From: Rhodospirillales bacterium
GTDB lineage: Bacteria > Pseudomonadota > Alphaproteobacteria > BOG-932 > Roseiterribacteraceae
DNA: 34,923 bases
Reading direction: 5' to 3'
Assembly: GCA_028291365.1 (NCBI GenBank)
Contig: JAQGIE010000172.1
Span: 1 to 34,923, forward strand
A program made the translations under genes and the position numbers. This document shows positions 11,651 through 16,539 of the stretch, in pieces (positions within the stretch are counted from its first letter, which is position 1; each line of letters opens with the position of its first letter). Below the pieces are notes generated by a model. The model had not been told where the DNA came from and did not search any database. It saw only the letters and a list, made by a program, of their open reading frames with translations.

Positions 11651-12502
11651 TCAGAAGGCGGCGTAGCCCGCCTCGGCTTCCATCGCCATGGCACCGGCCT
11701 GGTCCGTCGCCCACAGCCGCAAGCCGCCATGCCCGGCCGGCGCGGCGTGGGTGGTGAGGGTGGTGCCGTCGAATACCGGGCGCCGGGCGCGGAATTCGAA
11801 ACTCGACGGCAAGCGTGCCGATTTCACCTGCGAGGCCAGTTCGAGCAGCAAGGTCGCGATCAGCGGACCGTGCACGATCAGGCCGGGATAATGCTCGACC
11901 TCGGTGACGTAGCGCCGGTCGTAATGGATGCGGTGCCCGTTATAGGTCAGCGCCGAATAGCGGAAGAGCAGCACCTCGTCGGGAGTCCAGACGCGACTCC
12001 ACTGCCCGGTCTCGCCGGGCGCTTCGCTGGTCGCGACCGCAGCGCCTTCGACGCCGCGATAGACGATGTCGTGCTGCTCCTCGATCGCGAGACCCTTGGT
12101 GCCTTCGATCTTGTGCTCGACTTCGACGAAGACGAGCGGGCCGCTCTTGCCCTGCTTGGCGCGCACGTCTTTCACCGTCGAGACACGCCGCGCCGCTTCG
12201 CCGATCACCAGCGGCTGGTGGAATTTGAGACGACCGCCCGCCCACATGCGGCGCGGCAGCGGCACCGGCGGCAGGAAGCCGCCGCGCGCGGGATGACCGT
12301 CCTCGCCGGTCGCCGAGGCGGCGACGACGGGGCGAAACAGGATCCAGTGCCAGCAGGCCGGCAGCGCCTCGCCCACCATGGGCCAGGGTTGCGCGCGATC
12401 GAGCGCGCCCGCGAGCGCCTGCGCGCGCCACGGCTCGACCGTGTCGTGCGCAGTCTCGCTGCGACCGATCCAGGCGCGGAATTGTTCGAACTCGTCGCTC
12501 AC
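11651..12502 (-). CDS. FAS1-like/MaoC hot-dog acyl-CoA hydratase (HTD2 or mesaconyl-C4-CoA hydratase-like)
   Basis: Predicted to add or remove water across an enoyl-CoA-type double bond. The 283-residue protein has two hot-dog halves. The N-terminal FAS1-like dehydratase part includes PRRMWAGGRLKFHQPL. The C-terminal MaoC-like half carries YNGHRIHYD (187-195) and HYPGLIVHG (204-212), the expected active-site region. The closest type I recognise is the HTD2/mesaconyl-C4-CoA or itaconyl-CoA hydratase group. The start is a GTG only 3 bp after the glcF stop, so translation is probably coupled to glycolate oxidase. The true substrate is not determined. Confidence 0.83.
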   Translation of the reverse strand: MSDEFEQFRAWIGRSETAHDTVEPWRAQALAGALDRAQPWPMVGEALPACWHWILFRPVVAASATGEDGHPARGGFLPPVPLPRRMWAGGRLKFHQPLVIGEAARRVSTVKDVRAKQGKSGPLVFVEVEHKIEGTKGLAIEEQHDIVYRGVEGAAVATSEAPGETGQWSRVWTPDEVLLFRYSALTYNGHRIHYDRRYVTEVEHYPGLIVHGPLIATLLLELASQVKSARLPSSFEFRARRPVFDGTTLTTHAAPAGHGGLRLWATDQAGAMAMEAEAGYAAF

Positions 12503-12505
12503 GGA

Positions 12506-13792
12506 CTATCTGCTTCCCAGGGCTTCCGGCCTGGGGCCGCCAGTGGCCCAGTCGAGCAGCTCGACCGTGTGCACCACCGGCATGCCGACGGCGTCGGCGA
12601 GCTGCGTCATGCAGCCGACATTGCCCGTCGCCATCAGATCGGCGCCGGTGGCGGCGAGCGTGGCGGCCTTGCGCGCTTTCAGCTGCGACGCGATCGCGGG
12701 CTGCAGCAGATTGTAGGTGCCGGCCGAACCGCAGCAGAGATGCGCGTCGAGCGGTTCGCGCACGGTGAAGCCCGCCGCCTGCAGCAGCGCCTTGGGCTCG
12801 CGCGTGATCTTCTGCCCGTGCTGCATCGAACAGGCGCTGTGATAGGCGACGGTGAGTCCGCTGCCCTGCGACGGCGCCGGGAGATCCAGCGTGGTGACGA
12901 ACTCGGTGATGTCGCGCGCCAGCAACGACACCCGCGCCGCATCCTTGGCCAGCGCGGGATCGTCGCGAAACATCCAGCCGTAATCCTTGACCTGCGTGCC
13001 GCAGCCCGAGGCATTGACGACGATGGCGTCGAGCCCTTCGCCGTCGAGTTCGGCAACCCACTGCCCGATCAAGGAAGCGGCGAGTTCGTGGCTGGGATCG
13101 ACCTTGCCGAGATGATGCGGAAGCGCGCCGCAGCAGCCGCCGGTCACCACCACTTCGACACCGTGCCGCGTCAGCAGGCGGATCGTGGCCGCGTTGATCG
13201 ACGGCGCCAGCACGCGCTGGGCGCATCCCGCCAGCAGCGCGACGCGGGCGCGGCGCCGACCCAGCGCGGGAAACACGCCGTCGCGATCGGTCGCGTCCGG
13301 TCCCGGCACGTCGCGCGCCATGTCCAGCATCGCGCGCAGCCGGCCGGGCGGCAGCACAAAGCGGAACGGCCGCGCCAGCGCCGCGCCCAGCAGCGCGACG
13401 CGGAAACGTTTCGGATGCGGCAGGATGAACGCGAGCAGCGCGCGCAGCGTGCGGTCGTGCCACGGCCGGCGATAGGTCTCTTCGACATGCGCGCGCGCAT
13501 GGTCGATCAGATGCTGGTAGTGCACGCCCGACGGACAGGTCGTCATGCAGGCGAGGCACGACAGGCAGCGATCGAGATGCGTGGTCACGTCGCGCGTCGC
13601 CGGCTTGCCCTCTTCCAGCATCTGCTTGATCAGGTAGATGCGGCCGCGCGGACTGTCGAGTTCGTCGCCCAGCAGCACGTAGGTCGGGCAGGTCGCGGTG
13701 CAGAAGCCGCAATGGACGCAGGCGCGCAGGATCTTCTCCGACGCGGCGACGTCGGGATCGGCAAGCTGCTCGGTGGTGAAGTTGGTTTGCAT
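12506..13792 (-). CDS. glcF: Glycolate oxidase iron-sulfur subunit GlcF
   Basis: Electron-transfer subunit of the three-part glycolate oxidase, passing electrons from the flavin subunits toward the quinone pool. The 428-residue protein has two 4Fe-4S motifs: C25/C28/C31/C35 (CVHCGFCTATCP) and C76/C79/C82/C86 (CLSCLACMTTCP). The C-terminal half has two CCG domains, marked by TGGCCGALPHHLG and HLCCGSAGTYN. Length and order match GlcF. It lies downstream of glcE after a 116-bp gap holding an inverted pair of repeats, and 3 bp before the hydratase start. Related (Fe-S)-binding subunits of lactate oxidases look similar, but association with GlcD and GlcE favours glycolate. Confidence 0.93.
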   Translation of the reverse strand: MQTNFTTEQLADPDVAASEKILRACVHCGFCTATCPTYVLLGDELDSPRGRIYLIKQMLEEGKPATRDVTTHLDRCLSCLACMTTCPSGVHYQHLIDHARAHVEETYRRPWHDRTLRALLAFILPHPKRFRVALLGAALARPFRFVLPPGRLRAMLDMARDVPGPDATDRDGVFPALGRRRARVALLAGCAQRVLAPSINAATIRLLTRHGVEVVVTGGCCGALPHHLGKVDPSHELAASLIGQWVAELDGEGLDAIVVNASGCGTQVKDYGWMFRDDPALAKDAARVSLLARDITEFVTTLDLPAPSQGSGLTVAYHSACSMQHGQKITREPKALLQAAGFTVREPLDAHLCCGSAGTYNLLQPAIASQLKARKAATLAATGADLMATGNVGCMTQLADAVGMPVVHTVELLDWATGGPRPEALGSR

Positions 13793-15045: not shown

Positions 15046-15048
15046 GGT

Positions 15049-16539
15049 CTAAAAACGCGGCAGGTCGGGGAAACGCGTTTCACCGCGATGCACGTGCACG
15101 CGGCCTTCTTCGGCGCAGCGATGCAGGGTCGGAAACACTTTGCCCGGGTTGAAGCGCAGATCGACGTCGAAGGCGCATTTCAACCGATGCTGCTGTTCGA
15201 GATCGACGGCGTCGAACTGGTATTCCATCAGGTCACGTTTTTCGACGCCGACGCCGTGCTCGCCCGTCAGGACGCCGCCGACATCGACGCAAAGTTTGAG
15301 AATATCGGCGCCGAACGCTTCGGCGCGGTCGAGTTCGCCCGGCACGTTCGCGTCGTAGAGAATGAGCGGATGCAGGTTGCCGTCGCCGGCATGGAAGACA
15401 TTGGCGACGCCGAGCCCGTATTTGGCCGACATGTCGCGCATCGCCGCCAGCACGCGCGGCAGCGCGGCGCGCGGGATGGTGCCGTCCATGCAGTAATAAT
15501 CGGGGCTGATGCGGCCGACGGCGGGGAACGCCGCCTTGCGCCCGGCCCAGAACCGCAGACGTTCGGCTTCGGTCGTCGAAACGCGGCTGACCACGACGCC
15601 ATGCAAAGCCGCGATCGCTTCGACGCGTCCGATCAGATGGTCGACTTCGGCGGCGCAGCCGTCGAGCTCGACGATCAACAAAGCTTCGACGTCGAGCGGA
15701 TAGCCGGCCTGGACGAACGCCTCGGCGGCGTGGATCGCGGGGCGGTCCATCATCTCCATGCCGCCCGGTATGATTCCGGCGGCGATGATGGCGGCGACGC
15801 AATCCCCGCCCTGTTCCGCCGATGCGAAGCCGAGCAGCAAGGCGCGCGCCGTTTCGGGCTTCTGCAGAATGCGCACGGTCACTTCGGTGACGATCCCGAG
15901 CAGCCCTTCCGAACCGGTGAGCAGGCCGAGCAGGTCGTAGCCCGGCGAGTCGAGATGCTTGCCGCCGATCCGCACGATCTCGCCCTCGGGCGTGACGAAT
16001 TCGAGGCCGAGCACATTGTTCGTGGTGAGCCCGTATTTCAGGCAATGCACGCCGCCGGAATTCTCGGCGACGTTGCCGCCGATGGTGCAGGCGATCTGCG
16101 ACGACGGGTCGGGCGCGTAATAGAAGCCGGCCGCGTCGACCGCGTTGCTGATGGCGAGATTGGTGACGCCGGGCTGCACCGTGACGGTGCGGTTGGCATA
16201 GTCGATGTCGAGGACCGCCTTGAACTTGCCGAGGCCGAGCACGATGGCGTCGGCAACCGGCAGCGCACCACCCGAGAGCGACGTGCCGGCGCCGCGCGGC
16301 ACGATCTTGATCCCTTCCCGGCGGGCCCAGCGCAGCACGTCCGCGACCTGCTGCGTGGTCTCGGGCAAGGCCACCACCAGCGGCACCTGGCGATAGGCGG
16401 TAAGCCCGTCGCTTTCATAAGCGCGCATGCGCTCGGTCTCGGCGATGACGCTCGAGGCGGGGAGCAGCGTGCGCAGCTGCGCCGCGATCGCTTGGCGGCG
16501 CGCGAGAATCTGCGGATCGGGTTTGGGCATCGCGATCAT
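15049..16539 (-). CDS. glcD: Glycolate oxidase catalytic FAD subunit GlcD
   Basis: Oxidises glycolate (and possibly D-lactate) to the 2-oxo acid with bound FAD. The 496-residue protein has the PCMH FAD-binding fold (VPRGAGTSLSGGALPV; CTIGGNVAENSGG; GSEGLLGIVTEVTV). The C-terminal FAD-oxidase domain has FHAGDGNLHP and GGVLTGEHGVGVEKR, both strongly conserved in GlcD. It is the first gene of a glcD-glcE-glcF-hydratase series with very short gaps. An in-frame ATG three codons in is an alternative start; neither has a strong ribosome-binding site. A GlcC-type regulator is not present nearby, so control is unclear. Confidence 0.95.
   Translation of the reverse strand: MIAMPKPDPQILARRQAIAAQLRTLLPASSVIAETERMRAYESDGLTAYRQVPLVVALPETTQQVADVLRWARREGIKIVPRGAGTSLSGGALPVADAIVLGLGKFKAVLDIDYANRTVTVQPGVTNLAISNAVDAAGFYYAPDPSSQIACTIGGNVAENSGGVHCLKYGLTTNNVLGLEFVTPEGEIVRIGGKHLDSPGYDLLGLLTGSEGLLGIVTEVTVRILQKPETARALLLGFASAEQGGDCVAAIIAAGIIPGGMEMMDRPAIHAAEAFVQAGYPLDVEALLIVELDGCAAEVDHLIGRVEAIAALHGVVVSRVSTTEAERLRFWAGRKAAFPAVGRISPDYYCMDGTIPRAALPRVLAAMRDMSAKYGLGVANVFHAGDGNLHPLILYDANVPGELDRAEAFGADILKLCVDVGGVLTGEHGVGVEKRDLMEYQFDAVDLEQQHRLKCAFDVDLRFNPGKVFPTLHRCAEEGRVHVHRGETRFPDLPRF

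Follow-up and report, generated by a model that had tools for sequence, protein, structure and literature searches.

Why should a gene for an acyl-CoA hydratase stand at the end of a glycolate oxidase operon? The question is raised by contig JAQGIE010000172.1 of a Rhodospirillales bacterium (Roseiterribacteraceae; assembly GCA_028291365.1), the analyzed stretch of which, positions 1 to 34,923, is referred to here as the window. The reading frames place glcD (15049..16539), glcE (13909..15045), glcF (12506..13792) and an ich-like hydratase gene (11651..12502; 283 amino acids, GTG start) in this order on the minus strand, with the hydratase gene as the last of the operon. The glcF stop codon TAG, the three bases TCC (12503..12505) and the GTG start codon run contiguously, in agreement with the original prediction for this locus, in which the hydratase was said to start 3 bp after glcF. 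The answer that we favor, with a probability of about 0.62, is that the gene encodes a C5-dicarboxylyl-CoA hydratase of the itaconyl-CoA hydratase (Ich) family that is located in the glc operon, apart from its usual partner genes, and that these partners act from other loci.

Judged by its sequence, the protein is a member of the Ich/mesaconyl-C4-CoA hydratase family. Its best matches among solved structures were 8KHG (E 2e-68) and 8HUC (E 1.9e-67; phmmer), both itaconyl-CoA hydratase, and 118 of 261 aligned residues (45%) were identical to the solved enzyme. 8KHG is the enzyme of Pseudomonas aeruginosa. With E values up to 1, the solved-structure search returned no other dehydratase and, beyond these two entries, one chance match. 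Thirty-one alignment columns were invariant across 61 rows, the solved enzyme included, among them S183, T186, N188, and H190-D195; the YSxxTxNxHRIHYD stretch kept by the hydratase is part of these, which reflects conservation and does not imply catalytic roles. The solved-structure matches and the shared invariant columns thus support the earlier guess that the protein is a mesaconyl-C4-CoA/itaconyl-CoA hydratase, and disfavor a fatty-acid dehydratase. In an NCBIfam search the hydratase was not hit by the RipB model, and it is the single copy of its kind in the genome. According to the available text of one study, Ich also hydrates mesaconyl-C4-CoA (PMC12290011). For a little-studied soil genus this provides a likely C5-dicarboxylyl-CoA hydratase assignment.

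The same four-gene order was found in Roseiterribacter gracilis TMPK1 (locus L002), and the arrangement is therefore not due to chance. The proteins of the two species are 95% (GlcD), 81% (GlcE), 90% (GlcF), and 85% (hydratase) identical, and in R. gracilis the glcF stop codon overlaps the hydratase start codon by 4 nt (ATGA). Nonsynonymous (dN) and synonymous (dS) divergence between the two species, calculated by NG86, was 0.089 and 0.712 for the hydratase gene and 0.066 and 0.543 for glcF, i.e., the hydratase is under purifying selection similar to that on glcF. The adjacency of glcF and ich was present in both of the sampled genomes of the genus Roseiterribacter (2/2). Three genomes of the sister genus, one of them only 65% complete, all carried glcF (3/3) and none carried Ich (0/3); searches for order-level and family-level relatives returned the same five genomes.

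In a wider sample of 385 alphaproteobacterial genomes, an Ich homologue was found in 126 (E <= 1e-30) and GlcF in 179 (E <= 1e-80), and the neighbors were checked for the best 30 GlcF loci and the best 30 Ich loci. GlcF and Ich were neighbors at two of the 30 GlcF loci and two of the 30 Ich loci, each time in the genus itself, and no such adjacency was seen at the remaining 28 GlcF loci and 28 Ich loci. By eye, no other pair of GlcF and Ich on the same contig closer than about 10 kb was seen among the matches listed, and the R. gracilis locus was the only one of 32 named Ich loci that had the link. The expectation that the adjacency would be kept in relatives consequently holds within the genus but fails for the sister genus and for the other loci checked. 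The link, though real, looks more like an arrangement of genes peculiar to the genus than like a new pathway. Genes of an operon can be tightly packed, or even overlap, in a single genus, and such packing need not point to a shared pathway. In the accessible portions of the literature on glycolate oxidase with itaconyl-CoA or mesaconyl-CoA hydratase, or on glcDEF operons, no account of a glcF-Ich link was found.

The genes that normally accompany Ich were counted within 5 kb at 60 Ich loci outside the window (the 32 named loci and 28 from the alphaproteobacterial search). Neighboring frames were picked by similarity across loci, a procedure that genes unique to a single locus escape, and 28 of the 60 loci carry no more than about 1.5 kb of flank, so that all partner counts are lower bounds. 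An Mcd-like dehydrogenase was found at at least 20, an Ict-like CoA-transferase at at least 21, and a CitE-like lyase at at least 10 of the 60 loci, the labels Mcd-like and Ict-like being given by resemblance of the clusters and not by comparison with characterized proteins. At least 27 loci had one or more of the three partner types. Loci with all three include L012, L017, L021, and L029, which resemble the published itaconate/methylsuccinate cluster; L017 also encodes an MmgE/PrpD protein, as that cluster does. Several relatives have the order dehydrogenase-transferase-Ich, and at four loci (L062, L066, L070, and L073) the transferase stop codon and the Ich start codon overlap as ATGA. Elsewhere, the known partners of Ich are hence genes of the itaconate/methylsuccinate type and not glc genes.

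Two further arrangements were observed among the Ich loci. At L023, L025, L027, and L028 a lyase-MaoC group adjoins a divergent Ich. The Reyranella-type homologues (L011, L014-L016, L018, L020, L032, L068, and L077) form one clade (100/100) and occupy a conserved site beside a glycosyltransferase-like gene, without genes of the itaconate type; they possibly have a different role.

In the window, none of the pathway partners (CoA-transferase, dehydrogenase or lyase) lies beside Ich; its neighbor is glcF, and homologues of the partners are found on two other contigs, C103 and C210. Candidate genes for the CoA-transferase and the citramalyl-CoA lyase are thus present in the genome, which had been suggested as a place to look for them. 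On C103 a dehydrogenase gene is immediately followed by a gene for a family III CoA-transferase, without Ich. Of 20 Ict-like transferases encoded at Ich loci, 19 (all but that of L074) had the C103 protein as their best match among the 12 transferases of the genome, and the Ict-like queries were 45-62% identical to the C103 copy vs. no more than 39% to the other transferases. All 16 dehydrogenases from Ich loci were closer to the C103 copy than to the C210 copy; with the L017 dehydrogenase as query against the whole genome, the C103 protein came first of 11 matches (65% identity, 552 bits; the next had 178 bits). The pair is kept in R. gracilis (91 and 87% identity), and no significant Ich match was found at its locus there. 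The genomes of the genus (2/2) have Ich as well as the C103 transferase, and those of the sister genus (3/3), in which the transferase had no match at E 1e-60, have neither. CitE-type homologues were found in two of the three sister-genus genomes, with identities of 42% at most. Partner adjacency is a feature of the gene cluster and not of the enzyme.

Contig C210 carries genes for a RipC-like lyase, a RipB-like hydratase and an acyl-CoA dehydrogenase in a row (L051, 2727-5316; NCBIfam models), and this group is also kept in R. gracilis. The RipC-like and RipB-like proteins are shared with the itaconate pathway of the Yersinia type (RipABC), which differs in that the RipB model misses the window hydratase and that both C210 proteins score below the curated cut-offs. 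The genome has homologues of both types of itaconyl-CoA hydratase, Ich and RipB-like. The dehydrogenase/CoA-transferase pair on C103 is flanked by two genes for HpaI/GarL-like aldolases (L050, 7029-12419), one of which also adjoins the pair in R. gracilis. These two HpcH/HpaI genes were considered as malyl-/citramalyl-CoA lyases and rejected; they match HpaI/GarL aldolase models, with scores below the cut-offs.

From the observed gene order, family, genus-level conservation, selection, and locations of the partner homologues, the following mechanism can be proposed. The hydratase would most likely convert a C5 unsaturated dicarboxylyl-CoA (mesaconyl-C4-CoA and/or itaconyl-CoA, a predicted choice of substrate and direction) to (S)-citramalyl-CoA. 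The Ict-like CoA-transferase and the Mcd-like dehydrogenase would act from C103, and the RipC-like lyase from C210 would yield acetyl-CoA and pyruvate. At the 3' end of glcDEF, co-transcription of ich with glcF and translational coupling of the two are probable, and ich may share the regulation of glcF. The gene would have been relocated from its usual partner genes. The system would resemble the ict-ich-ccl itaconate/methylsuccinate cluster of the Pseudomonas type in its hydratase, which has the same domain and the invariant residues of Ich, and in the transferase, dehydrogenase and lyase homologues encoded elsewhere in the genome. It differs in that ich lies behind glcF and not with ict, mcd, or ccl, and in that the RipC model is the one matched by the lyase. 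If the cell benefits from the glc link at all, it is probably through shared timing rather than through a shared intermediate.

Several observations weigh against this reading. None of the three partner types was found within 5 kb at 33 of the 60 Ich loci, so that a stand-alone Ich is common. Both C210 proteins fall short of the curated cut-offs (RipC-like, 238 vs. 375; RipB-like, 235 vs. 340), and the RipB-like protein could make Ich redundant. Arrival by transfer is an alternative to relocation of ich. In a tree from which the partial L033 was excluded, the hydratases of the window and R. gracilis paired firmly (100/100), with a long stem of 0.73; the tie of this pair to L081 was weak (85/75), and the deep forks, on which a placement with proven Ich or with a paralogue depends, were unsupported. 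The CoA-transferase next to the L081 Ich is of a different type, and the nearest tree rows by path, from Pseudorhodoferax and Variovorax, also lie near a CoA-transferase of that type. Finally, a second homologue of Ich is reported for Cupriavidus necator; its gene lies beside those for a CoA-transferase and an adenylosuccinate lyase-like protein, and it is tentatively assigned to a different pathway (PMC12290011).

The weak L081 grouping, the short paths to the Pseudorhodoferax and Variovorax copies and the C. necator case would all fit a paralogue of Ich with another acyl-CoA as substrate and a role in some unknown pathway. We regard this as possible though unlikely, because the genome has no close copy of the different transferase type (best matches of 76-106 bits for 7/7 queries) and has the Ict-like transferase instead, and because the hydratase keeps the residues invariant in the family. 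The only Pfam domain of the protein, FAS1_DH_region (PF13452, E 3e-10), would agree with a dehydratase of the type II fatty-acid or HTD2-like kind. Such an enzyme is nevertheless extremely improbable, as itaconyl-CoA hydratases were the only meaningful matches in the sequence search against solved structures described above (E values up to 1).

The position behind glcF can also be read as a sign of glyoxylate assimilation along the lines of the second cycle in the 3-hydroxypropionate (3HP) bi-cycle. GlcDEF would supply glyoxylate, a CitE-type lyase would add propionyl-CoA, and a MaoC-type hydratase would form mesaconyl-C1-CoA; a family III CoA-transferase would then convert the C1 to the C4 ester, the Ich-like protein would form citramalyl-CoA, and the lyase would release acetyl-CoA and pyruvate. 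In favor of such a route are the operon link conserved within the genus, the presence of one CitE-type lyase and of family III transferases, and a MaoC-type hydratase that adjoins the lyase and matches the mesaconyl-CoA hydratase family over half the length (83 bits, cut-off 26.5). The predicted reaction of the window hydratase is of the same type as that of the mesaconyl-C4-CoA hydratase (Meh) of the Chloroflexus bi-cycle. Against such a route, no canonical Mcl-type lyase was found among the three PF03328 genes of the genome, which are the two HpaI/GarL-like aldolases and the RipC-like lyase. The latter is nearest to RipC-type models (NCBIfam RipC_Ccl), and its best solved match is 3qll, presumably RipC, with 181 bits vs. 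no more than 131 for Mcl structures. A full-length Mch was not found either: the best PF19315 match spans 20-173 of 353 and the second is below the cut-off. The C103 transferase, the one of the 12 genome transferases that was compared, is only remotely like Mct: the Mct entries, those named in the available part of PMC9813914, matched with E 2.7e-7 and 3e-8, and the best chain with 8e-61.

Malate synthase G, above both NCBIfam cut-offs, is moreover an ordinary glyoxylate sink judged by its family match. With this sink present, canonical Mcl and full-length Mch not found, and the adjacency limited to the genus, we strongly doubt a 3HP-type route, and the original proposal, in which a pathway would connect glyoxylate with C5 acyl-CoAs, is not supported. 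The proposal does have relatives in print, as far as the accessible text of the sources goes: glycolate assimilation via glcDEF and the 3HP cycle has been proposed for Chloroflexus (PMC3150298), and a citramalate cycle, in which acetyl-CoA and pyruvate are the start and glyoxylate and propionyl-CoA the end, has been reviewed (PMC8307300). The glcF-Ich link adds little weight to it. As a RipB/Mch-like hydratase, a CitE-type lyase and transferases are present, a glyoxylate route keeps a small probability. It is very doubtful that Roseiterribacter assimilates glycolate via a 3HP-type half of its own, composed of the RipC-like lyase, the RipB/Mch-like hydratase, the Ict-like CoA-transferase and Ich, with the siting in glc serving induction by glycolate. 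If a 3HP-type reading were true, it would mean a glycolate-to-pyruvate route in a heterotrophic alphaproteobacterium.

The glc genes themselves have the three-subunit order and the family matches of a glcDEF glycolate oxidase operon, which they leave in having an Ich-type hydratase after glcF, here in the genus Roseiterribacter only. GlcF, the iron-sulfur subunit (428 amino acids), scored above the NCBIfam cut-off (PRK11274, 440 bits vs. 333). GlcE, the FAD-binding subunit (378 amino acids; PRK11282, 273 bits vs. 284), and GlcD, the FAD subunit (496 amino acids; PRK11230, 677 bits vs. 897; TIGR00387, 500 vs. 567.9; Pfam FAD_binding_4 and FAD-oxidase_C), were below theirs, although their own families were the best match; R. 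gracilis GlcD was likewise below the cut-off. The frames of the first gene caller in the glc region were rejected since it had chosen shadow frames on the opposite strand, and family matches were used instead.

Between glcE and glcF lies a palindromic stretch of 116 bases (13793..13908, minus strand) with a strong hairpin (z -3.25 vs. shuffles), and the operon is hence not uniformly tightly packed in this genome. The R. gracilis glcE/glcF junction lacks the hairpin stretch, and its 20-base arm was not found a second time within the window with up to three mismatches allowed. The hairpin could reduce the expression of glcF and of the hydratase gene. Upstream of glcD are two genes for single-domain response regulators (16769-17650; Pfam), and this pair is kept in R. 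gracilis, where a third similar copy is present.

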